DNA of 64,000 nucleotides from Verrucomicrobiota bacterium (GTDB lineage: Bacteria; Verrucomicrobiota; Verrucomicrobiia; Limisphaerales; CAIMTB01). The stretch spans positions 1 to 64,000 of the forward strand of contig CAUJJW010000063.1 in assembly GCA_963205105.1 (NCBI GenBank). Direction: 5' to 3'. This document shows, piece by piece, positions 20,113-37,987 of the stretch (positions are counted from its first letter, which is position 1; each line of letters begins with the position of its first letter). The notes beneath the pieces are model-generated. The model worked only from the letters and a program-made list of their open reading frames with translations, ran no database searches and was not told the DNA's origin. Made by a program: the position numbers and the translations under genes.

Positions 20113-22566
20113 GTGTTGTTTTCCCGCCTCCTGATCCGGCTCGTCCTTTGGGCCTCCCTGCTCGCAACCGCCGACGCCCAAACCAACGTCCCGGCGACCC
20201 CTGGCTCCCTGGAAGTCGCCAGCGCTGTGCTCGCGCTTTCCCCGGGCGAAGCCGCCACCCAAATCCCCTGCCTCATCCGGGGAGTCGTCACTTGCAGCAA
20301 TCGCCGCGCCGACCTCCTTTTCGTTCAGGACGCCACCGCCGGCCTCTACATCTACTCCCAGGAGAACCTTCCCACCCTGGGCGATGTGGTCGAAGTGCGA
20401 GGCACCAGCGCCCAGGGACTCTTCTCGCCCATCATCATGGCCGAACGAGTCACCATCGTGCGCCGAGGCGAGCTGCCCGCCGCCCGCCCCATCGCCATCG
20501 AGGAACTCTCCTCCGGACGGCATGACTCCCAATGGGTGGAGGTCCAGGGCGTCGTCATCCGCCAGTCCGTCGACTGGGGCCATCTCGTCGTCCAACTCGC
20601 CTCGGGCAGCTCCCGCCTGAGCGTCCGCATCCTGGAGTTCGATCCCCAACAACTCCCCAACTGGGTCGACGCACGCGTCAAAATCCGGGGCGTCGCCGCC
20701 ACCGCGTACAACAACCGCCGCCAGTTGGTCGGTTTCCATCTGCTCACCCAATCCCCCCAGTTCCTCGAAGTCCTTCGCCCGCCCACCCCGGACGCCTTCT
20801 CCCTTCCCATCCGATCCAGCGCCAGTCTCATGGCGTATTCCCCGGAGGGCGCTTCCGAACACCGCGCCCGCCTCCAAGGCGTTGTGACCTGGGCCTGGCC
20901 AGGCCATGGATTCTACCTCCGCGATGCATCCGGCGACGTCCGTGTCATCGCCACCAACTCCAGCCCGCAACTCGGCGACATCGTCGAGGCGGTCGGCTTC
21001 GCGGCCCCCACGCTCAATCGCCCCGTTCTGTTGGAAGCGGTGTACCGGAAAATCGGGCAGACCAACACCCCCACACCACGTCGCGTGGGCGCCCGCGAAG
21101 TCTCGGAAGGCGCCGCTGACAGCGAACTCGTCGTGCTCGAGGGCATCGTGCTGAAGGTCGGGGAACGGCACAACGACCACTCCGCCCTGGTCCTGGAAGC
21201 CGATCAAAAGGTGTTCCGGGCCCGGTATCAGGATTCCTGGACCGTCCCCGAAGCCGACCGGATGGTCGGGGGCAAGGTCCAGGTCACCGGCGTCTGTGTT
21301 CAGGATTCACCCGATGCCCGCAGCTCCGATGGGTTCTCCCTCTGGCTCCGCGGACCCGAGGATTTCCGCCTCATGGAATCGTCGCCAGTGTGGCGCCAAA
21401 AACAGGCCCGCTGGCTGCTGGGAGGTTCCGGAGCCTTCGTCCTGCTCGGCGCCGCCTGGGTCGCCCTCCTCCGCCAGCGTGTGCGCGTTCAAACCCGCCA
21501 GATCCTTCAACGCGAAGCCGCCCTGGAGGAGCGGTTCCTCGATCTCTTCGAGAACGCCAATGACATCATCTACTCCCACGACCTCAACGGCGTCCTCCAT
21601 TCGATCAACAAAGCCGGCCAGGAAATCCTCGGACGAACCGAGGAGGAACTTCTCGGAACCTCCATCGAATCCTTGATCGAACCCGAGGACCTTCCGATCG
21701 CCCGCCAACATCTCGCCTCCAAAATCGCCGGTGCACCCCGCACCAGTTACGAAATCCGCGTCCGCGCCAAAAACGGCCAAACCCTCGTCCTGGAGGTCAA
21801 CAGCCGTCTGCTGTTCAAGGAGGGAACCCCCGCCGGCGTCCATGGCATCGCCCGAGATATCACCGATCGCAAGGAGGCCGAGGAGGCCCTCCGCTCGAGC
21901 GAACAGCAGTTGCGCCATTCCCTGGAAGAGCGCGACCGCCTCGGTCGCGACCTGCACGATGGGATCATCCAATCCATCTACGCCGCAGGCCTCACCCTCG
22001 ACGACTGCACCCGCATCCTGAAACCCGAACCGGAGACCGCCGAGCGCCGGTTGAAGACAGTCACCGCCGATCTCAACCGCGTCATTCGCGATGTCCGCCA
22101 GTTCATCGGACGTCTCGAGCAGGACCCCTTGTCCGGCGCCGAGTTCAAGACCGCCCTCCAGGCCCTGGCCCTCACCGTCAACGGAAGATCCCCCTCCCAC
22201 GTGGAAACCCGGATCGATGAAAACGCCGCCCAGCGCCTCCATTCCCACCAGGCCGCCCACCTCCTCCAAATCGCACGGGAAGCCCTGAGCAACAGCATCC
22301 GCCATGGCAAAGCCGGCCGGGTCGTCTTCTCACTCCAAAGCACCCGCCGCGGCTTGCAGTTCGAAATCCAGGACAACGGATGCGGCTTCGCTCCCTCCGA
22401 AACCGATCGAAAAGGCCGGGGCCTGCGCAACATCGCCGCCCGCGCCGACCGCCTCGGCGCCTGGCTTCGCATCCAGGCCAAACCTGGCGAAGGCACAACC
22501 ATCTCCCTGGACCTGCCCCCTGAAGAACCCCATGCACCCGAACATCCGAGTCCTCATCGTCGATGA
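20113..22566 (+). CDS. NarX/LiaS-type sensor kinase with four OB-fold-like extracytoplasmic repeats
   Basis: The 817-residue kinase starts at GTG. A signal peptide (residues 1-22) is followed by an exported region of four OB-fold-like units in A-B-A-B order: about 50-118, 137-222, 249-312 and 337-420. The A units begin with I-R/Q-GVVT and contain a (V/R)-Q/R-DA-x-AG/GD strand. A TM helix lies at about 433-453, then PAS (about 472-590, NANDIIYSHD and DITDRKEAEEAL), then HisKA_3 with RDLHDGIIQ (His615), and HATPase_c (about 710-803) with EALSNSIRHG, DNGCGF and GRGLRNIAARA. What the OB units bind is unknown. It overlaps its response regulator by 35 nt. Confidence 0.9.
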   Translation: MLFSRLLIRLVLWASLLATADAQTNVPATPGSLEVASAVLALSPGEAATQIPCLIRGVVTCSNRRADLLFVQDATAGLYIYSQENLPTLGDVVEVRGTSAQGLFSPIIMAERVTIVRRGELPAARPIAIEELSSGRHDSQWVEVQGVVIRQSVDWGHLVVQLASGSSRLSVRILEFDPQQLPNWVDARVKIRGVAATAYNNRRQLVGFHLLTQSPQFLEVLRPPTPDAFSLPIRSSASLMAYSPEGASEHRARLQGVVTWAWPGHGFYLRDASGDVRVIATNSSPQLGDIVEAVGFAAPTLNRPVLLEAVYRKIGQTNTPTPRRVGAREVSEGAADSELVVLEGIVLKVGERHNDHSALVLEADQKVFRARYQDSWTVPEADRMVGGKVQVTGVCVQDSPDARSSDGFSLWLRGPEDFRLMESSPVWRQKQARWLLGGSGAFVLLGAAWVALLRQRVRVQTRQILQREAALEERFLDLFENANDIIYSHDLNGVLHSINKAGQEILGRTEEELLGTSIESLIEPEDLPIARQHLASKIAGAPRTSYEIRVRAKNGQTLVLEVNSRLLFKEGTPAGVHGIARDITDRKEAEEALRSSEQQLRHSLEERDRLGRDLHDGIIQSIYAAGLTLDDCTRILKPEPETAERRLKTVTADLNRVIRDVRQFIGRLEQDPLSGAEFKTALQALALTVNGRSPSHVETRIDENAAQRLHSHQAAHLLQIAREALSNSIRHGKAGRVVFSLQSTRRGLQFEIQDNGCGFAPSETDRKGRGLRNIAARADRLGAWLRIQAKPGEGTTISLDLPPEEPHAPEHPSPHRR

Positions 22567-23176
22567 CCATGTCATGGTCCGGCTCGGCCTCCGAACCATG
22601 CTCGATCACTTCCCAGCCATCGAAGTCGTCGGCGAAGCCGGCAACGTCGCCGAAGCCATCGAAAGCACTCTCCGCTTCCTGCCGGATATCGTGCTCCTCG
22701 ACGTGCGACTCGGCGCCGAAAGCGGCCTCGCCGCCTGCCGGGAGATCCAAAAGCTTGGACGCGGCATCCGGGTCATCGTCCTCACGTCCTACTCCGACGA
22801 AACCACCATCTTCGACGCCATGGCCGCCGGTGCCGATGGCTACCTCCTGAAGGAGATTGATGGCGAAGCGCTGGTCCAGGGCATCCGGGACGTCGTCACT
22901 GGCAAGGCCGTGCTCGACCCGGCTGTGACCCGCGTTCTCGGCCGACTGGACCATCCCGGCGGGACTTCCGAACGCGGCAAACTGGACCTGCTCTCACCGC
23001 GCGAACGCTCCATCCTGGCCCTGGTCGCCGAGGGCAAGACCAACAAGGAAATCGCCGCCGTCCTGGGTCTCAGCGACAAGACGGTGAAAAACTATTTCAG
23101 TCACACCCTCGACAAGCTCGGCCTCTCCCGACGCTCCCACGCCGCCGCCTTCTACATCCGGCACCAGTTTTCTTAG
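22532..23176 (+). CDS. NarL/FixJ-family response regulator (REC-LuxR)
   Basis: The 214-residue regulator has a receiver with acidic D11/D12 in LIVDDH, phosphoacceptor Asp57 in IVLLDVRLG and Lys in YLLKEI. The C-terminal LuxR-type HTH has LSPRERSILALVAEGKTNKE, then IAAVLGLSDKTVKNYF. Start ATG at 22532 lies inside the kinase gene (35-nt overlap), so the two are translationally coupled and form a cognate pair. It ends head-to-head with the OmcB-like gene, with a 4-bp stop overlap. Confidence 0.93.
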   Translation: MHPNIRVLIVDDHVMVRLGLRTMLDHFPAIEVVGEAGNVAEAIESTLRFLPDIVLLDVRLGAESGLAACREIQKLGRGIRVIVLTSYSDETTIFDAMAAGADGYLLKEIDGEALVQGIRDVVTGKAVLDPAVTRVLGRLDHPGGTSERGKLDLLSPRERSILALVAEGKTNKEIAAVLGLSDKTVKNYFSHTLDKLGLSRRSHAAAFYIRHQFS

Positions 23177-25653: not shown

Positions 25654-25670
25654 GCGTTCCCAGAAACCTG

Positions 25671-26017
25671 CCTCCGTAGCGCCGGACGTCCCGCCTGCCG
25701 TAGAAGGGGGCGTCTCGCCCCCTGGAATCCCTGGTTCATGGTCGGTGGGCAGATCGATTTCGAACAGGGGGCTACCCTTGAACCATGCCTCCGTAGCGGC
25801 GGGCGTCCCGCCTGCCGTAGAAGGGGGCGCCTCGCCCCCTGGAATCCCTGGTTCATGGTCGGTGGGCAGGTCGATTTCGAACAGGGGGCTTCCCTTGAAC
25901 CATGCCTCCGTAGCGGCGGGCGTCCCGCCTGCCGTCGAGGGGGCGTCTCGCCCCCTGGAATCCCTGGTTCATGGTCCGTGGGCGGGTCGATTTCGAACAG
26001 GGGGCTACCCTTGAACC
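25671..26017. repeat. Three tandem 117-bp repeat units containing two GC hairpins each
   Basis: Units start at 25671, 25788 and 25905. Each holds CCTCCGTAGC, a first dyad GGCGGGCGTCCCGCC (GCCGGACGTCCCGCC in unit 1), a second dyad around GGGGGCGTCTCGCCCCC and a tail ending GAACAGGGGGCT. Units differ at few bases, and the third is 1 bp shorter. Related single copies occur at 44468, 49717 and 49815. This is a genome-interspersed repeat; 117 is a multiple of 3, so the block stays open in one frame, but it has no sign of being a gene. Confidence 0.9.
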
Positions 26018-26300: not shown

Positions 26301-26684
26301 ATGAGCACCGATCTTCATCTCAGTCGACGCGAACGCCAGATCATGGACGTCCTCCATGCCCGCGGCGAAGCCGGCGCCTCCGAGGTTCTCGAAGCCCTTC
26401 CCGATCCACCCAGCTATTCCGCGGTCCGCGCCCTGCTCCGTATTCTCGAGGAAAAGGGCCACATCTCCCACCGCGACGACGGCGGCCGTTACATCTACCG
26501 CCCCCAGGTTTCCCACAAGGCCGCCAGTCGCAGCGCCCTGAAACGGGTCGTCACCACCTTCTTCGAGGGCTCCGTCGCCCAGGCCATGGCGGCGCTCCTG
26601 GAAACCGCCGACACCGAAATCCCCGAACCGGAGGTGCGTCGACTCCGGCAGATCATCGACAAGGCGCGAAAGGAGGGACGCTGA
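26301..26684 (+). CDS. BlaI/MecI/CopY-family transcriptional repressor
   Basis: This 127-residue winged-helix protein matches the penicillinase-repressor family: LSRRERQIMDVLHARGEA, ASEVLEALPDPPSYSAVRALLRILEEKG and HRDDGGRYIYRP wing, followed by a C-terminal dimerisation helix pair. Classical members are cleaved when the M56 partner senses its signal, releasing the target promoter. Two TGCTAA(A/T)TTTCCAGCA operators sit upstream. The M56 gene follows after 1 bp. No beta-lactamase gene is adjacent, so the regulated genes and inducer are unknown. Such pairs are frequent in Verrucomicrobiota and Planctomycetes. Confidence 0.93.
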   Translation: MSTDLHLSRRERQIMDVLHARGEAGASEVLEALPDPPSYSAVRALLRILEEKGHISHRDDGGRYIYRPQVSHKAASRSALKRVVTTFFEGSVAQAMAALLETADTEIPEPEVRRLRQIIDKARKEGR

Positions 26685-26685
26685 T

Positions 26686-28572
26686 ATGCACCTCGCAGCC
26701 ATCCTCTCTTCGACGTTGGCGGATGCCGCCGCAGCCGCTGTGGCCGATCTTGTCGCCGATGCGCTCACGCGCGGCACCCTATGGTTTGCCCTGGCTTACC
26801 TGGTCTGCCGAGGGATTCGCCGATTGTCCGCCGCCGAGCGCCACGGTGTTTGGCTGCTCGCCTTATCGGCCACCGCCATCGCTTCTTTGGCCGCGGCCGC
26901 AGCGCGGTTCCCCGGCCGCACCCTCCCTGGTGCTCCCCTGCTCCAAGACGTTTCGCCCTCGTCAGAATTCGCGCTCGTGACTCTCGAACCCCCGTCGCTG
27001 CCTACCGTCGCCTCACCGGAACCGATTCACAGCCGCGAACCCAAGCCAGCGACCAGCCCGGAAAGCCGCCATTGGCGTGTCGCGACTTGGTCGCTTCCGC
27101 TCGATGCGGCCGAAGCGCCTGGCATTGCGGTCCTCTGGTGTGCTGGTTTCCTGGCTGTGCTCGCCCGAGCGGCCGTCGGGCACGCAGCCCTCGCGCGCCT
27201 GAGAAGCTCCGCAACACCGGTTCACGACACGGATTGGCTGTCGCTGCTCGATAACCTTCGAAAAGCCCGCGGACTCCGACGCCCCATCGGACTCCGGCGC
27301 GGCCCAAGGGTGCGGCTCCCACTCGTCCTCGGAACGTGGTCCCCCGTCATCCTCCTCCCCGAGTCCAGCCGGGACTGGGATGGCGAACGTCGCCGTGCTG
27401 TACTCCTCCACGAACTCGGCCACGTCCGCCGCTTCGACTGCCTGGTCCAGGACCTTGGCTCGCTGGCCTTCGCCGTCCTCTGGTTCCACCCCCTGGCCTG
27501 GTTCGCCCGCACACGCCTGCGCGTGGAACGCGAACACGCGTGCGATGACACAGTCATCAGCGATGGCTTCAAACCGTCCGATTATGCCGAGCACCTCGTC
27601 GACCTCGCCGGACCTGGCGAGAGCAGCGTTCCGCACGCGGCGGTCGCCATGGCCCGCACGGGTCATCTGACGGAGCGTGTCCATGCCATTCTCGATCCCT
27701 TGAGGCCACGTCGATCGCGACTGCCGCACGGATCCATTGTCTTCTTCGCCGGGATTGTGGGCACTGCCTGCTTGTTTCCCCGCATCCTCGCCGTGGAAGC
27801 CACAAACAGCACCGACCTGGCACCAAGGACTGTCACCCAAAACACGATTCCCACTGCCGCCAAATCGGAGACTTTGCTGGTGCTCGCGGAATCGGAAACC
27901 GAGGGAATCCGGAGACTGCGCACTGCCGTGGAGGAACAGCAAAAGCGCGTCGGGGAACTGGAACGAAACCTCCAACGCACCCGCGTCTCCCTACAGCTTC
28001 CAACGCCCCTCGACCCACGCTCTGAGAATTCGGACCCACAGTCGAACGCCCGTCACATAGAACACCTGCAAGCCGAGGTCCGGTCGCGCCTCGTTCGCCT
28101 CGTCGCTCAGCACGATCGAATCGCCGCGCTTCCTGAGGGCAACCTGACCGCCGTCCTGCTTTCCCTGCAACCGGAAGACCGCCTGCTCCAGCATCTCGCC
28201 ATCGCCCAGCTTGACGCGAGACTCCAATACGAAGCCTCCGCTGCTGTCCATGGCGAAGCCCATCCCGAAGCCCGGCGAACCTCGAAGGTGCTGGAACTCA
28301 TCGACCGTGAACTCGCCGGTCGCGTGCAAGGCATCCTCCGAGCGATGAAGACCCAGATCGAGGCGACCCAGGCGGAATTGGCCCATCTGGACAAGGCCCG
28401 ACAGTCCGAGGTCGAACGCGCTTCCGAACTCAACGCCTTCTTTCTAGAGAAGCGGGATGTGGAAAATGCTCGCCTCATGCTCGACGTGCTCAGCCGCAAA
28501 TTGGCTCAGGAAATGTTTGATGCCCAAAATCCACGCCCAACACGCGGCAGCAACACCCCTGCCAAACCCTGA
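26686..28572 (+). CDS. BlaR1-like M56 family membrane metallopeptidase
   Basis: The product has 628 residues. TM helices at about 30-75 and 146-166 precede the cytosolic zinc protease loop with HELGH (H242-H246) and the downstream LRVEREHACDD supplying the third ligand, then a TM near 350. In place of the penicillin-binding sensor domain of true BlaR1, the roughly 240-residue C-terminal part is Glu/Arg/Leu-rich and predicted to be coiled-coil (about 390-440 and 520-600). The signal it senses is therefore probably not a beta-lactam. It is likely to inactivate the repressor encoded just upstream. Confidence 0.88.
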   Translation: MHLAAILSSTLADAAAAAVADLVADALTRGTLWFALAYLVCRGIRRLSAAERHGVWLLALSATAIASLAAAAARFPGRTLPGAPLLQDVSPSSEFALVTLEPPSLPTVASPEPIHSREPKPATSPESRHWRVATWSLPLDAAEAPGIAVLWCAGFLAVLARAAVGHAALARLRSSATPVHDTDWLSLLDNLRKARGLRRPIGLRRGPRVRLPLVLGTWSPVILLPESSRDWDGERRRAVLLHELGHVRRFDCLVQDLGSLAFAVLWFHPLAWFARTRLRVEREHACDDTVISDGFKPSDYAEHLVDLAGPGESSVPHAAVAMARTGHLTERVHAILDPLRPRRSRLPHGSIVFFAGIVGTACLFPRILAVEATNSTDLAPRTVTQNTIPTAAKSETLLVLAESETEGIRRLRTAVEEQQKRVGELERNLQRTRVSLQLPTPLDPRSENSDPQSNARHIEHLQAEVRSRLVRLVAQHDRIAALPEGNLTAVLLSLQPEDRLLQHLAIAQLDARLQYEASAAVHGEAHPEARRTSKVLELIDRELAGRVQGILRAMKTQIEATQAELAHLDKARQSEVERASELNAFFLEKRDVENARLMLDVLSRKLAQEMFDAQNPRPTRGSNTPAKP

Positions 28573-30935: not shown

Positions 30936-32072
30936 GTGACCCGTATATTTCTCATTCTGGCCCACACGTTGACTCGTGCGGGGTTGCGTAATTGCCTAGC
31001 GGGTAACACCGACTTGCAAGTCGTTGGGGATGCCCCAGACGCAGCTGGCGGGTGGCCCCAGGTCACGCAGCTTCGTCCTGATCTGATCGTACTGGACGGA
31101 GTCGCTCTGAATGCGCTCCACGCCAGCGGACGGTTTCCCACCGACTCCGACAAATCACCAGCACCCACGCTCGTGCTTTTCACGGACAACGACGCCATGG
31201 AGCAAACGGACAGCGCGCTTCAGGCCGGCGTTCGTGGCTTCCTCGACACCGCCACCACCCCGGAGGCGCTGATCAGCGCGCTTCGTCGTGTCGCGGCTGG
31301 CGAACGTTACGTCTCACCCGCACTCCTCCCTCCGCGCGTCGGCCCCGAGGAAGGCGTTCCGGTGATCCCCGAGACCAATCCGGAAAGCCTGCTCTCCGCC
31401 CGGGAACTGGAAGTGTTCATTCTCACCGCCGGCGGCCTGGAATCGAAAGAGATTGGCGATCGCCTGGGCATCAGCCCTCGCACGGTGGATGTGCATCGCG
31501 CCAACATCCGCCAAAAGCTCGGCCTGAGCGGGGTCCATGAGCTGATGCGGTATGCGCTGATGTGGAAGCAGAACCGCGAGCGCACGAACCGGGCCGGCCG
31601 CTTCTGCAACGAACGCCGTCCCATGCTGCTCGTCGAGGACGATGAAGTGGACGTTCTCAGCGTTCAGCGGGCCCTGGCCCGACTCCCAGCCCGTTTCCAG
31701 GTGGAAGCCGCCCGCAACGGCGAAGAAGCTCTCGCCTGGCTTCGCAATCACGGGAACGTGCCCCCGTTCATGATCCTTCTGGACATCAACATGCCACGCA
31801 TGAACGGCCATGAGTTCCTCGCCGAACTGCGCAAGGACCCGGCCCTGAAGACCCTGCCGATCGTCGTCCTCACCACCTCCCCGCACGAAGCAGACCGGGA
31901 TCGGCTCTACGCCGCAGGCATCACCGCCTACTTCGTGAAGCCCACCACCACGGAGGATTTTTCCGAGCTGTTCCGCACGCTGGCTGAGTTCTGGGGCTTC
32001 AATTCGCCGCCCCCTTATCCGGCCGGCGCATCCGCTCTCCCCGCAGAACGGGAACGCGCTCAAGCGGCCTGA
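30936..32072 (+). CDS. REC-LuxR-REC fusion response regulator
   Basis: This 378-residue protein has an N-terminal NarL-type receiver (about 1-125) that keeps Asp54 but lacks the acidic pair: the usual V-D-D-H reads L-A-H-T. A LuxR HTH (150-207, LSARELEVFILTAGGLESKE and ISPRTVDVHRANIRQKLGLS) follows. A second, complete Rcp1/CheY-like receiver (about 230-352) has LLVEDDEVDV, Asp283 in ILLDINMPRMNGHEF and Lys335 in YFVKP. No stop codon separates the halves; an ATG at 31623 could allow separate production of the second receiver. The start is GTG. It precedes the 1951-residue kinase by 59 bp and is its likely partner. Confidence 0.85.
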   Translation: MTRIFLILAHTLTRAGLRNCLAGNTDLQVVGDAPDAAGGWPQVTQLRPDLIVLDGVALNALHASGRFPTDSDKSPAPTLVLFTDNDAMEQTDSALQAGVRGFLDTATTPEALISALRRVAAGERYVSPALLPPRVGPEEGVPVIPETNPESLLSARELEVFILTAGGLESKEIGDRLGISPRTVDVHRANIRQKLGLSGVHELMRYALMWKQNRERTNRAGRFCNERRPMLLVEDDEVDVLSVQRALARLPARFQVEAARNGEEALAWLRNHGNVPPFMILLDINMPRMNGHEFLAELRKDPALKTLPIVVLTTSPHEADRDRLYAAGITAYFVKPTTTEDFSELFRTLAEFWGFNSPPPYPAGASALPAERERAQAA

Positions 32073-32131
32073 AAGCGGCTTTGACCCGCGCGAAGGGGTT
32101 TCGTCGACCCGGACGAATCGAAACCGGGCGT

Positions 32132-35100
32132 ATGCCTCAACGGCACTTCGTCGTCGTTCTTCGTCGATTCCATCGCTGGGCGAGGGTCCTTGTGGCCCTC
32201 GCCTCGTTTGTTTTTCAGCCACTTCACGGACTCGCACAGTCGCCCCCCTCGCCTCCAACCACCTTGCGTTCGGCCCGGGAGGCTCGAGCCGTTCCCCGTG
32301 ACTCCGATCCCCTCGTTTCCCGCCCCGTCGACCTGGAAGGGGTGGTGACCTTCGCCAAACCCGGCTGGGAAACGTTCTACCTCCAGGACGATTCCGCCGG
32401 CATCGCTTTCTGGGGCGATTCCCTTCCCGCCGACCTCGCCGCCGGTGATCGTGTCCGCCTCCAGGGCCAATGGCGGCCGGGCCGTTTCGCTCCATTCGTC
32501 GAGACCACCCACATTGTCCGCCTCGGCCGATCCACACTTCCGCCGAGCCGACCGGCCCTTCCCCGTGATCTGCTCGCCGGAGCCGAGGATGGCCAGCGCG
32601 TCTCCGCAGTGGGGGTGATCCGGAAGTCCGCGACCCAGGACCATCTCACCGAATGGGAGGTTCACGGGGAATTCGGCGGACTGGAAACCTTCCTCATCGA
32701 CCTGCCCGGCAACCCATGGTCGGAACCCAAGTGGATCGGAGCTCGCGTCCGGGTTCACGGCGTCTGCTCCTCGCGCTTCAACGACCTCTCCCAGTTCACT
32801 TCCCCAAGGCTCCTGGTCCATCGAGGGGAAGACATCGAACTGCTGTCGCCGCCTCCGGATAACCCGTTTGATCTGCCCCACGTTCCGCTGGATAAGATCC
32901 TGAGTTTTGATCCCACCCGCGACCAGGACTCTCAGATCTGCGTCACCGGCGTCGTCACGGCGCTGCGATCCCCTGGATCCTTTTTCATCCAGGCGGGGAA
33001 CCACGGTCTGCGTGTCGAACTCGCCTCCCTCAACCCATCCCCACCGGCCCCGGGATCCCAGGTCGAAGTCATTGGCTTCCCCATGGCCGGCCGGCACGCC
33101 CCCAGTCTTCAGTCCGCCCGCTTCCAAGTGCTCGGAGAAGGTCAGCTGCCCAACCCGCTTGAATTCCTGTGGAAGGACAGCACCGCTCCCATGGACAGCC
33201 TGCTCGTCTCAGTCGAAGGGCAGTTGGCCGAACGAATTCCCGACGGTATCGCCCGCCAATTCCATCTCCAGATCGATGGGGGCAAGGACCTTCTGGTTCG
33301 CCTCCCGTCACCGCTCCGCAAACCATCCCATCTCGACCTGGAACGTGAAAGCCGGGTCCGCCTCACCGGGGTCTACGAGCAGAAGATCGAAACCACCGCC
33401 TCGGGCGTCGACCACGCCCTGGTGCTGCGGGGTTGGGGCGACGTCGAGGTCCTCCACCCCGGACCCTGGTGGACCATGGAACGAGCGACATTGACCGCCT
33501 CCCTCCTCGGCCTGGTGGTTACCCTTGGCCTCACCTGGTCCGCCACCCTCCGCCGTCGCCTGGATGCTCAACGCAAACAACTCGAGGAGCAGCTCGCTCA
33601 TCGCCTTTCGCTCGAACGCCGGCACCGCGAACTTACCGAAGGGGCACCCGACGCCATCTACACCCTCGACACCCGAGGCCGCATCCTGTCCGCCAACCCC
33701 GCCGCCGCCTCCCTCACCGGCCGCACCGAGGCCGAACTCCGCACCCTGTCCATCTTCGAAATCGTCGCCCCAGACGAAATCGAACGCACCCGCTCACGGG
33801 TCCAAAGCCGCTTCGGTGTCGGCGGCGACGCCGCCCCCTTCGAGGTCGATATCGTCACCTCGAATGGTCACCGACGCACCCTGGAGGTCGCTTCCAGGAT
33901 TCTCCGACCACCCGATGCAACACCGGTTCTGGAGGGCGTGGCCCGGGATGTGACGGAACGCCGCCGCGCTCAGGAAGCCCTCAAGGCCCTGCTCGCCACC
34001 ACCGCCCTCGCCGGCGGCAATGAGCTGTTCCAGATCATCGTGCGACGGCTCGCCGAGGTTCTCCGCATCGAATTCGCATTCATCGGCGTCCTCGAAGACG
34101 GCACGCGATCCACCATCCGCACCCTCGCCATCTGGCACGATGGCCATCCCATCCCCGACCGCTCCTACCCCCTCCGCGGCAGCCCCTGCGCCAGCGTTCT
34201 CGGCAACACCATGTGCGTGTACCCGCGCGGGGTTCAGGAACTCTTCCCCGACGACGAGCACCTGCGGCAACTGGACGCCGAAGCCTACGTCGGACTACCC
34301 CTTTGGGATGCGGAAGGCAAACCCCTCGGCCTGCTCGGTATCGTCAGCATCGAACCCTTCGAGCCCGACACCGCCCAAATCGACATGCTCCGGATTCTCG
34401 CCGCCCGCACCGGCGCCGAGATCGATCGCCTGCGAGCCACCCGCGCCCTTCAGGAAAGCGAGGAACGCTTTCGCGAACTTGCCGAACAAACCCGTGATGT
34501 CCTCTGGGTCGCCGACCTGCCCGCCCACCGCCTCGCCTACCTCAGCCCCTCCTTCTCGCGCGTCTGCGACTACCCGATTGATCTCGTCCGTCAGAATCCC
34601 CGCCGACTCCTCCGGCTGATTCCCCGCGAGGACCGCACCCGTGTGCTCGCAGCACTTCGCAAGGCATTGCTCGAACCCAGCGGGCGCTACGCCACTGAAT
34701 ACCGCATCCGCCGAACCGATGGCACGCTCGGCTGGATCCTCGATGAAGGCGTCGTCATCCGAAACGCCGAAGGCCATCCCTACCGCCTGAGCGGCGTCGC
34801 CCGCGACATCACCACCCGCAAGGAAGCCGAACTCGCCCTCGCCGCCGAACGCGCCCGCTTCCGCGAGCTCTTCGAAAACTCGCCGGACGCCATCTTTGTC
34901 GAAAGCCTGGACGGAATCGTCCTCGACGTGAACGGCGCCGCCTGCCGCCTCCACGGCCTCTCGCCGGAACAAATCACCGGACGTCACATCGGCGATCTGG
35001 TGCCGATGGAGCATCGTGAACAGGTCCTCGCCGCCTTCGACCGCCTCATCGCCGGCGAAGTCACCCGCGTCGAAGGCTGGAGCCTCCGCAGTGACGGCTC

Positions 35101-37987
35101 CGAGGTGCCCGTCGAACTGCACGTGAGCCGACTCCGGCATGAAGGCCAGGACGCCCTTCTGGTTCACGCCCGCGACATCTCGTTCCGCCGGGAAGCCCAG
35201 GAACTGCTGGATGGCCAGAAACGCATCCTCGAATGGATCGCCACCGGCCGCCCGATCGAAACCATTCTCGAGGAACTGCTCCGCGTCACCCAGGCGCGCT
35301 GGCGATCCGCCCGTTGCAGCATCCATTGGCTGCCCTCACCCGCAGAAATGAAGCTGCGCGTCGTCTCCCCTTCCTCCGGACCCGGTACGGCCGTCCTCCT
35401 CGATGAACTCGGCCGCAACGACGGACCCATCCTCGAGGCTCTCGCCAATGCCCACCTGCCCGCCCACGCTCCCGCCTCGGGCGAAGACTCCCCCATCTCC
35501 CATCGGCCCCACAGCGGGGTTCTTCGCATCCGGCTTCACGGCTCCCACGGCGATCGGACCGCCTTGATCGGGCCCATGCAGGAATCCGACGGCCGCCCCC
35601 TGGGCGCAGTCACTGCGATTCTGCCCGAAGGCCTCGAGCCCACCGGCGAAAACCTCGATATCCTCCGCCTCGCGGTGTCCCTCGGCGGTGTCGCCCTTCA
35701 ACGTCACCGCTCCGACACCGCGCTCCGGGAAGGTTCTGATCGACTGCGGATCGCCAACAGCGCCCTGCTTTCCCTCGCCAGCAGCGACTCCGTCGCCAAG
35801 GGCGACCTGGGCCGCGCCCTCCCCGAAATCACCGAGGCCGCCGCCCGCGGACTCGGGGTCCTGCGAACCAACGTCTGGCTGCTCGATCAGGACGGTTCGT
35901 TCCTCCGATGCATGTACGCGTTCGGCGAAAGCCACAGCGCCGGTTCTACCCCGTCCTCCATCCGAACCTCCGAATTCCCCGCCTACTTCGAGGCCCTGAA
36001 CCGCGAACGCTTCGTCTCCGCCGCCCACGTCGAGAGCGACCCGCGCACCCGCGAGCTGTACGTCTCCTACCTCGGCCCCCGCGGCATCACTTCCACCCTC
36101 GACGCCGGCATCCGGCTCGGTGGCCAACTCGTCGGCATTCTCTGCCACGAACACCAGGGCCCGCCCCGAACCTGGAGCAATGAGGAGGAACTCTTCGCCG
36201 GCTCCCTCGCCGATCTCGTCGCCCAAACGCTTCAAGCCAGTCAGCGACGCCTCGTCGAGGAAGCCCTCCGCCAAAGCGAAGAGGCCTACCGCTCCGTCGT
36301 CAGCGTGCTCGCCGAGGGGGTCATGCTCGTCAACCGGGAAGGAACCTTCGTCACTTTCAACGAAAGCGCGGCCTCCATCCTCGGCTGTTCCAGCGAATTC
36401 CTCAAAGACCACCGCCTGGATCAGGTGCCCTGGGAAACCATCCGCGCCGACGGTTCCAAGCTGCCACTGGAAGATTACCCCCTCAGCATCACGTTCCGCA
36501 CCGGCCAACCCGTCACCGATTCCGTCATGGGCCTCCACCGTGCCGACGGCAATTGGGTCTGGCTCTCCATCAACACCCGGCCCTTCGATCGCGAACCGGA
36601 TGGCAGTATCGCCAGCGTGCTCGTCTCCTTCGCAGACATCACGTCACGCTACGCCGCCGAACGCGAACTCCGGCTCAACCACGACCTCCTCAGCGCCATC
36701 ACCCAGGTCCAGGCCCGGTTCATCGCCGACGCCGACCCATCCCGCAATCTCGGGCACATGCTCACCGAGCTCGCCAAGATGACCCGCAGCGACTCCGGGC
36801 TCATCGGTGAGGTCAACCCCACCTCCGACGGCCGGAGCGGATTCCTGCTCTGCGCCGCCATGGATGTTCCAACCGCGGACGAACCCGTCGCTGCTGCTCT
36901 CGAGAAGACCACTCCGGGCACATCCAGTCTGACCGACCTGATGGAGGAGGTCCTCCGCACCCAGAACGCCATCGTCCGGGCCGCCCCGTTCGAGCCTCCT
37001 CCGCCCGCCAGCACCCACGACACCACCGTCACTACACCCGACCCGGGCGCCGGCGCTCTGCACATGCTCGCCCTGCCCCTCCGCATGGATGACCGCATCC
37101 TCGGAGTCGCAGGACTGTCCCGCCGGTCCAAGCCCTACGACCCCGGCGCCGTCCGCAAGCTCGAGCCGCTTCTGATGACCTGCGCCAGCCTGTTCGGTGC
37201 CATCCGCACCGCCCGCCGGCGCCTCGAAGCCGAAGCCCAAATCCGCGAGCTGAACGCTCAACTCGAAAAGCGCGTCGAGGAACGCACCGCCGACCTCCGT
37301 GCCATGAACGAGGAACTGGCTGAGTTCGCTTATGTCGTCACTCACGACCTGAAAGCCCCACTGCGCGGCATCCATCAGCTCGCCGAATGGCTCACCCAGG
37401 ACCATGCCTTAGGCCTCGATGAAAGCGGGCTTAAACTTCTCGCCCTCCTGCGCCGTCGCGTCCTCCACCTCCAACGACTCGTTGACGGCCTGCTCGCCTG
37501 CGCCCGCGTCGGTCGCTCACCGGAACCGGAAACCACCGTCTCCGTCTCCCAACTCATCCACGAGGTCATCGGCGTTCTTGCACCACCACCCCAGGTCGTC
37601 ATCGACGTTCCCGAAAGCCTGCCCACCATCCACGGCAATCCGGAACGCCTCCACCAGATCTTCCAAAACCTGCTCGATAACGCCGTCAAGTACCTCGACA
37701 AGCCGGAAGGGCTCATCCGCATCCAAGCCACCCGCCAGACGGGCGCCTGGGCTTTCCGGGTCAGCGACAATGGTCCCGGCATCCCCCCACGCTATCGGGA
37801 AAAGGTCTTCCAGATCTTCCAGCGCCTCGATATGCGCGGCGACATCCCCGGCACCGGCCTGGGTCTTACCCTCGTCCGCCGCATCATCGAAGCCCGTGGC
37901 GGTCGCGCCTGGATCGAATCGGCCGAAGGCGACGGGACCGCGGTCTGCTTCACTTGGCCCGATCGGGCCAGGCGCCGAACGGAATGA
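32132..37987 (+). CDS. Giant PAS/GAF sensor histidine kinase with OB-fold-like exported region
   Basis: The product has 1951 residues. A signal peptide or anchor (about 16-36) is followed by exported OB-like units in A-B-A-B order (about 65-130, 152-240, 266-335, 355-442), a TM helix (452-472) and a long cytosolic chain: PAS (495-612), GAF (625-775), PAS (780-898), PAS (905-1020), GAF-like (1030-1195), GAF (1205-1375), PAS (1385-1510), GAF-like (1518-1695), coiled coil, HisKA with FAYVVTHDLKAPLRGI (His1738) and HATPase_c with NLLDNAVKYL, DNGPGI and GTGLGLTLVRRI. This phytochrome-type core normally works with Rcp1-like receivers such as the one encoded upstream. The ATG at 32132 precedes the signal; a TTG at 32081 would only add residues. 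Confidence 0.9.
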   Translation: MPQRHFVVVLRRFHRWARVLVALASFVFQPLHGLAQSPPSPPTTLRSAREARAVPRDSDPLVSRPVDLEGVVTFAKPGWETFYLQDDSAGIAFWGDSLPADLAAGDRVRLQGQWRPGRFAPFVETTHIVRLGRSTLPPSRPALPRDLLAGAEDGQRVSAVGVIRKSATQDHLTEWEVHGEFGGLETFLIDLPGNPWSEPKWIGARVRVHGVCSSRFNDLSQFTSPRLLVHRGEDIELLSPPPDNPFDLPHVPLDKILSFDPTRDQDSQICVTGVVTALRSPGSFFIQAGNHGLRVELASLNPSPPAPGSQVEVIGFPMAGRHAPSLQSARFQVLGEGQLPNPLEFLWKDSTAPMDSLLVSVEGQLAERIPDGIARQFHLQIDGGKDLLVRLPSPLRKPSHLDLERESRVRLTGVYEQKIETTASGVDHALVLRGWGDVEVLHPGPWWTMERATLTASLLGLVVTLGLTWSATLRRRLDAQRKQLEEQLAHRLSLERRHRELTEGAPDAIYTLDTRGRILSANPAAASLTGRTEAELRTLSIFEIVAPDEIERTRSRVQSRFGVGGDAAPFEVDIVTSNGHRRTLEVASRILRPPDATPVLEGVARDVTERRRAQEALKALLATTALAGGNELFQIIVRRLAEVLRIEFAFIGVLEDGTRSTIRTLAIWHDGHPIPDRSYPLRGSPCASVLGNTMCVYPRGVQELFPDDEHLRQLDAEAYVGLPLWDAEGKPLGLLGIVSIEPFEPDTAQIDMLRILAARTGAEIDRLRATRALQESEERFRELAEQTRDVLWVADLPAHRLAYLSPSFSRVCDYPIDLVRQNPRRLLRLIPREDRTRVLAALRKALLEPSGRYATEYRIRRTDGTLGWILDEGVVIRNAEGHPYRLSGVARDITTRKEAELALAAERARFRELFENSPDAIFVESLDGIVLDVNGAACRLHGLSPEQITGRHIGDLVPMEHREQVLAAFDRLIAGEVTRVEGWSLRSDGSEVPVELHVSRLRHEGQDALLVHARDISFRREAQELLDGQKRILEWIATGRPIETILEELLRVTQARWRSARCSIHWLPSPAEMKLRVVSPSSGPGTAVLLDELGRNDGPILEALANAHLPAHAPASGEDSPISHRPHSGVLRIRLHGSHGDRTALIGPMQESDGRPLGAVTAILPEGLEPTGENLDILRLAVSLGGVALQRHRSDTALREGSDRLRIANSALLSLASSDSVAKGDLGRALPEITEAAARGLGVLRTNVWLLDQDGSFLRCMYAFGESHSAGSTPSSIRTSEFPAYFEALNRERFVSAAHVESDPRTRELYVSYLGPRGITSTLDAGIRLGGQLVGILCHEHQGPPRTWSNEEELFAGSLADLVAQTLQASQRRLVEEALRQSEEAYRSVVSVLAEGVMLVNREGTFVTFNESAASILGCSSEFLKDHRLDQVPWETIRADGSKLPLEDYPLSITFRTGQPVTDSVMGLHRADGNWVWLSINTRPFDREPDGSIASVLVSFADITSRYAAERELRLNHDLLSAITQVQARFIADADPSRNLGHMLTELAKMTRSDSGLIGEVNPTSDGRSGFLLCAAMDVPTADEPVAAALEKTTPGTSSLTDLMEEVLRTQNAIVRAAPFEPPPPASTHDTTVTTPDPGAGALHMLALPLRMDDRILGVAGLSRRSKPYDPGAVRKLEPLLMTCASLFGAIRTARRRLEAEAQIRELNAQLEKRVEERTADLRAMNEELAEFAYVVTHDLKAPLRGIHQLAEWLTQDHALGLDESGLKLLALLRRRVLHLQRLVDGLLACARVGRSPEPETTVSVSQLIHEVIGVLAPPPQVVIDVPESLPTIHGNPERLHQIFQNLLDNAVKYLDKPEGLIRIQATRQTGAWAFRVSDNGPGIPPRYREKVFQIFQRLDMRGDIPGTGLGLTLVRRIIEARGGRAWIESAEGDGTAVCFTWPDRARRRTE

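Follow-up and report, generated by a model that had tools for sequence, protein, structure and literature searches.

An in-frame receiver-LuxR-receiver fusion with a degenerate first receiver, co-inherited with a phytochrome-core kinase in the Limisphaerales

Most DNA-binding response regulators sense through a single N-terminal receiver, and in NarL-type proteins the DNA-bound dimer is formed by the last helix of the helix-turn-helix (HTH). The 64,000-nucleotide stretch of a Verrucomicrobiota genome (order Limisphaerales) that we analysed, hereafter the window, holds a gene in which a receiver (REC1) and a LuxR/GerE HTH are followed in frame by a second receiver (REC2), and a giant kinase gene comes next (Table 1). 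The question is whether such a fusion is real and, if it is, which receiver takes the input and from which kinase. Our answer is that it is a real, conserved, lineage-restricted variant built of known response-regulator parts and not a new class of system. As for its working, we favour, at a probability of about 0.6, a receiver replacement in which the input would have moved from REC1 to REC2, the kinase would phosphorylate REC2, and phospho-REC2 would pair the HTHs.

Table 1 Features of the fusion locus and related loci (window positions unless another contig or locus is named)
Feature	Position	Strand	Basis
REC1-GerE-REC2 fusion regulator, 378 aa	30936..32072	+	GTG start; single open reading frame; Pfam; architecture repeated in 13 copies
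REC1, degenerate NarL-type receiver, residues 2-125	30939..31310	+	site alignment and AlphaFold2 model, still (βα)5
LuxR/GerE helix-turn-helix, residues 152-207	31389..31556	+	Pfam
Predicted continuous helix, residues 200-224, last HTH helix extended towards REC2	31533..31607	+	AlphaFold2 model
REC2, intact Rcp1/DrRR-type receiver, residues 230-356	31623..32003	+	Pfam; nearest structures; Foldseek; site alignment
C-terminal tail beyond REC2; W353 and P359 nearly invariant	31992..32033	+	alignment; likeness to stand-alone Rcp1-type tails
Terminator-like hairpin between fusion and kinase, overlapping first kinase codons	32178..32204	+	z -4.2
Kinase, 1951 aa: N-terminal segment without Pfam match, PAS/GAF repeats, HisKA-HATPase_c core, H box HDLKAPL	32132..37987	+	open reading frame; Pfam
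Fast-evolving fusion paralogue (L148, L002)	G000:C125 13773-14879		
Hybrid-kinase module loci	L198 6513-14945; L199 5510-14631; L200 7517-16399; L147 1955-10790		

Pfam found two Response_reg (PF00072) stretches in the protein, the best at residues 231-343, with GerE (PF00196) between them at 152-207. The N-terminal receiver followed by a GerE HTH is the arrangement of NarL/FixJ-type regulators, and Foldseek matched the front half of the fusion to LiaR, VraR and NarL. Unlike in those proteins, the HTH is internal, with 171 residues beyond it and a second receiver among them; at most 30 residues lie beyond the HTH in 17 of the 19 GerE proteins of the window genome, and the two exceptions are its two fusions. 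A standard pair stands at window positions 20113-23176, where the gene of an ordinary HisKA_3 kinase precedes that of an ordinary NarL-type regulator whose receiver is intact. An AlphaFold2 model built from 13 sequences (mean pLDDT 82.6, pTM 0.69, scores at which the relative placing of the domains is uncertain) contains two complete (βα)5 receivers, and its last HTH helix runs unbroken over residues 200-224 towards REC2; W210 and F223 are invariant in the alignment of all 13 fusion copies.

When 320 genomes of the order were searched with a profile, 12 were found to carry the fusion, every match scoring 362 bits or more. These carriers are not independent, as they belong to three families only: f1, the family of the window genome (G000), represented in the sample by five genomes of one genus; f15 (six carriers); and f7 (one carrier). 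A diverged paralogue in the window genome brings the copies to 13. All compared genomes are drafts, and the copy of G002 is cut by contig ends. The fusion is thus present in five of five genomes of the genus and in two further families, and among the 320 genomes there was no relative in which the fusion family exists as two separate genes, the case that the sequence-only reading had named as fatal to it. The next full-length-like match (151 bits, G044) was rejected as a distant fusion; it consists of two genes with an intervening stop, the second being a receiver-kinase. Contig C309 of the window genome was likewise rejected as an un-fused pair, its FixJ-like regulator and separate receiver both being far from the fusion family. 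A class-wide search of 384 genomes returned four carriers, all already known, and a phylum-wide search of 387 genomes returned the window's own copy only; both samples overlap the order, and few candidates were scored per genome. Among plasmid records, none covered 80% of the query.

The 13 proteins align throughout the linker, after which REC2 begins with LLVEDDEVD, so that a single fusion event, followed by inheritance or transfer, would be the simplest history. In the tree, f1 stands apart from f15 and f7, and the paralogue joins the window copy; the places of G317, G091 and the paralogue are unsure because of long branches. The paralogue is 59% identical to the window copy over residues 2-370 and has no stop. 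It has no neighbouring kinase, an ordinary NarL-type regulator lying directly upstream, and it has either lost the kinase neighbour or never had one.

To read the receiver sites, we aligned the copies with four canonical regulators from the window genome. REC1 had been described as lacking its acidic pair, and it is indeed defective, with L-A in place of D-D and a Thr in place of the β5 Lys; the alignment string given for it was one residue off, as L-A-H-T corresponds to D-D-H-x and not to V-D-D-H. The acceptor Asp (D54) and the β4 Thr are retained in the window copy. The β5 Lys is absent from REC1 in all 13 copies, so that none retains an intact REC1 site; what else has been lost depends on the family. 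The acidic pair is replaced by L-A, L-G or L-T in six of six f1 copies, all of which keep the Asp; in f15 the Asp has become Gly in six of six copies, with the E-E pair retained in five; the f7 copy has E-S and keeps its Asp. As a control, the site is intact in 16 of the 17 single-receiver GerE regulators of the window genome. The remaining one, L182 (G000:C368), has a degenerate site of its own (E, P, N, G, R).

REC1 is also the fastest-changing domain apart from the linkers. Within f1, REC1 copies share a mean identity of 50%, against 76% for REC2 and 83% for GerE; the corresponding means between f1 and f15/f7 are 26%, 55% and 66%. In the closest pair (G003/G004), dN is 0.111 for REC1 and 0.033 for REC2, so REC1 evolves about three times faster; since dS exceeds 1, its dN/dS is about 0.1 and REC1 is still under purifying selection, although dS is near or past saturation in many pairs and such ratios are rough. 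A receiver that is dead yet conserved suggests a structural job, for which REC1 would have been kept. However, D54 in six of six f1 copies and E-E in five of six f15 copies mean that some REC1 chemistry may remain, which weighs against the replacement reading. The best-surviving alternative builds on this: REC1 would sense a ligand, a partner protein, acetyl phosphate or another modification in a non-canonical way, REC2 would take the kinase signal, and the protein would integrate the two inputs. The purifying selection, the complete REC1 fold in the model and the retained D54 are consistent with it, and PMC4395418 describes receivers that lack the Asp yet carry out functions themselves. On the other hand, different residues are kept in f1, f15 and f7, with no active-site set common to the three, and the rapid change of REC1 also argues against it. 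We consider two-input integration unlikely.

REC2, by contrast with the degenerate REC1, looks fully functional. Its E-D-D, D, T and K residues are all present in the 12 full copies, the 13th ending with its contig before the T and K. The proposal that it is Rcp1-like was borne out by sequence and fold (6xvu, 1k68, 1i3c): among solved structures DrRR, RcpA and Rcp1 are nearest to it, Foldseek matched it to DrRR and Rcp1, and W353 and the following proline stretch are kept in the tail. According to PMC8292422, DrRR and AtRR1 are receiver-only proteins; in crystals DrRR forms an inverted 4-5-5 dimer, and AtRR1 uses its C-terminal extension to make an arm-in-arm dimer. REC2, by contrast, is joined to a DNA-binding regulator in all 13 copies.

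The kinase that follows is 1951 residues long if read from the ATG at 32132, which lies 59 nucleotides past the fusion stop, or 1968 residues from a TTG at 32081. It had been taken for a kinase with a phytochrome-type core, and the core, at about residues 1700-1951, is indeed closest to those of solved bacteriophytochromes; the protein itself is no phytochrome, as PHY is absent from the Pfam matches listed for it. The pairing of the two genes recurs in relatives. In the window, G001, G003 and G004 the next same-strand gene encodes a PAS/GAF kinase of one family (1438-1951 aa), and in G002 the contig that carries the fusion end runs on into a 1951-aa kinase, so all five f1 orthologues, and not the paralogue, have such a neighbour. 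The kinases of G001, G003 and G004 have no counterpart of the roughly 500 N-terminal residues seen in those of the window and G002, so the sensor end varies while core and fusion stay constant; the difference covers window positions 32132-33600 in comparison with L115, L116 and L117.

The kinase core also follows the fusion across the order. At a threshold of at least 250 bits the core family occurs in 13 of the 320 genomes, namely the 12 fusion carriers and G319, whose genome is 70% complete and belongs to the genus of G317; the next-best match reaches 206 bits. Of the f15 genomes, six contain the fusion together with the core and eight contain neither. Fisher's test gave p 3.3e-4 within f15 and 7e-21 over the whole order, values that are not corrected for relatedness. 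The large f1 kinases cluster with a second kinase of G095 and G096, separately from the shorter PAS kinases. Two observations count against the partnership: in G086, G095 and G096 the matching kinase and the fusion are on different contigs, and the paralogue has no kinase beside it. The same partnership is common for stand-alone receivers of other bacteria: 73 of 78 Rcp1-type receivers lie within 300 nucleotides of a phytochrome-type kinase core on the same strand. Similarity to the window protein was the criterion by which the loci were picked; of the 80 returned, two from the window genus (L035, L040) were excluded.

The comparison of H boxes covered 22 kinase cores, including four that come from other phyla or classes. 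An H-box motif with an acidic residue at H+1 and Ala at H+4 was found in 21, and the G091 box reads HDVKAPL by eye. According to PMC8292422, autophosphorylation relies on the acidic H+1 residue as its general base, while phosphatase activity is controlled by the residue at H+4; Agp1, which has Ala at that position, behaves as a net kinase, and both DrBphP E536A and Agp1 have weak or no net phosphatase activity. The window kinase shares the HisKA-HATPase_c core and the acidic H+1 with DrBphP and Agp1, and differs from them in its PAS/GAF sensor array and in having no PHY among the Pfam matches.

Another possibility is that REC2 is addressed by a different kinase, for instance from a hybrid-kinase module, and that the large f1 kinase is incidental or acts as a phosphatase. 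This module comprises a short PAS kinase, a methyltransferase, a membrane-type hybrid kinase with two HisKA-HATPase units and a REC-HATPase protein. The fusion adjoins or nears it in the f15/f7 carriers G085, G086, G087, G091 and G317, being convergent with the REC-HATPase gene in the first four and close to it in G317, that is, in five of the seven f15/f7 carriers. The hybrid kinases have HisKA cores of their own, and REC-HATPase, found in 11 of the 12 fusion carriers, would be an alternative partner. However, it also occurs in 149 of the 320 genomes, far beyond the fusion, whereas the phytochrome-core kinase matches the fusion distribution almost exactly. In f1 the module and short kinase (G000, G001, G003) are on other contigs, with no fusion beside them; in G095 and G096, too, they are on a contig other than that of the fusion. 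Furthermore, Ala at H+4 in all 21 motif matches and in the one box read by eye corresponds to the weak or absent net phosphatase state described in PMC8292422. We hold this alternative to be somewhat less likely than the two-input one. As REC-HATPase is so much more widespread, the fusion and the phytochrome-core kinase look like additions to a module that is the commoner system. The module also looks like a signal-sensing system; a FadL-like outer-membrane protein is encoded in five of ten module loci, and together with the methyltransferase this allows a lipid-like signal to be guessed at, but only guessed.

The adjacency in f1 may not mean co-transcription, which is doubtful because terminator-like hairpins separate fusion and kinase in three f1 genomes (z -4.2 in the window, -4.1 in G003 and -3.4 in G004; the hairpin of G001 is less clear, at -2.4). 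Counterpart intergenic hairpins lie at L116 7510-7580 and L115 9070-9136. The overlap of the window hairpin with the initial kinase codons could mean that it acts as an attenuator or that the start of the kinase has been wrongly assigned. No convincing shared operator was found upstream of the six f1 copies. On the other side of the fusion, the window contains a gene pair for a Penicillinase_R (BlaI-type) repressor and an M56 (BlaR1-type) peptidase (26301-28572), and a tandem array of three 117-bp units with 94% matches (25665-26017); the array lies downstream of a gene that encodes an N-terminal methylation motif.

A free REC2 might additionally be made from an internal ATG at 31623, as the sequence-only reading suggested. 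This idea did not hold up: the ATG exists in the window copy and the paralogue, but the other 11 of the 13 copies have CTG, CTC, CTT or GTG at this codon, and no evident Shine-Dalgarno sequence was seen by eye in the 20 nucleotides upstream, so that a free receiver is very improbable. The last alternative, a sequencing or assembly error that joined two separate genes through a missed stop, could be entertained when a single draft sequence was at hand, and the compared genomes are likewise drafts, but it is refuted by relatives carrying the same fusion, with one frame kept through a conserved linker in 13 copies from 12 genomes despite high synonymous divergence (dS mostly about 1 or more).

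The replacement reading thus remains the one we prefer, and it can be set out as a history. A NarL-type regulator would have gained, by capture, a stand-alone Rcp1-type receiver at its C-terminal end, to which the input would then have shifted. After the capture, REC1 would have lost its Lys in every lineage and other residues by different routes; no longer capable of normal phosphorylation chemistry, it would have been kept as a dimer contact or as a cover of the DNA-binding domain. REC2 would be phosphorylated by the co-inherited phytochrome-core kinase, which in f1 would be the large PAS/GAF neighbour; in f15 and f7 the role would fall to a PAS kinase that is shorter, at about 430-590 aa. 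Phospho-REC2 would then dimerise, and the continuous helix would set the two DNA-binding domains in register. Whether the capture behind the HTH changed the partner, with REC1 losing its chemistry afterwards and staying as a scaffold while REC2 works the HTH through the helix, is in our judgement an evenly balanced matter.

Among known systems, the fusion stands between several types. Like aspartate-less receiver (ALR) regulators, reportedly including BldM and WhiI, it retains a degenerate receiver on a DNA-binding protein. Unlike them, the f1 fusion keeps the Asp, including D54 of the window, loses the acidic pair and Lys, and adds an intact second receiver; the six f15 copies do lack the Asp. 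It shares the N-terminal receiver and HTH with NarL/FixJ-type regulators but has a non-working REC1 site, and it shares the REC2 sequence and fold, the W/P tail and the nearby phytochrome-type kinase with Rcp1/DrRR-type receivers. We did not find the REC-GerE-REC architecture described in the open-access literature, although the bare domain order may well be catalogued in protein-architecture databases.

If our reading is true, this would be a natural rewiring of a two-component pathway by fusion, in which receiver specificity was left unmutated. The receiver that would do the work stands behind the HTH, while its N-terminal predecessor is disabled in all copies found, across three families and with a co-inherited kinase. 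These genomes therefore offer a natural series for studying how a pathway changes its partner, what use a dead receiver has, and whether a receiver is able to drive a LuxR-type HTH from the C-terminal side. Receivers of the REC2 class are known mainly as proteins with no other domain, and the fusion points to a possible transcriptional output for them.
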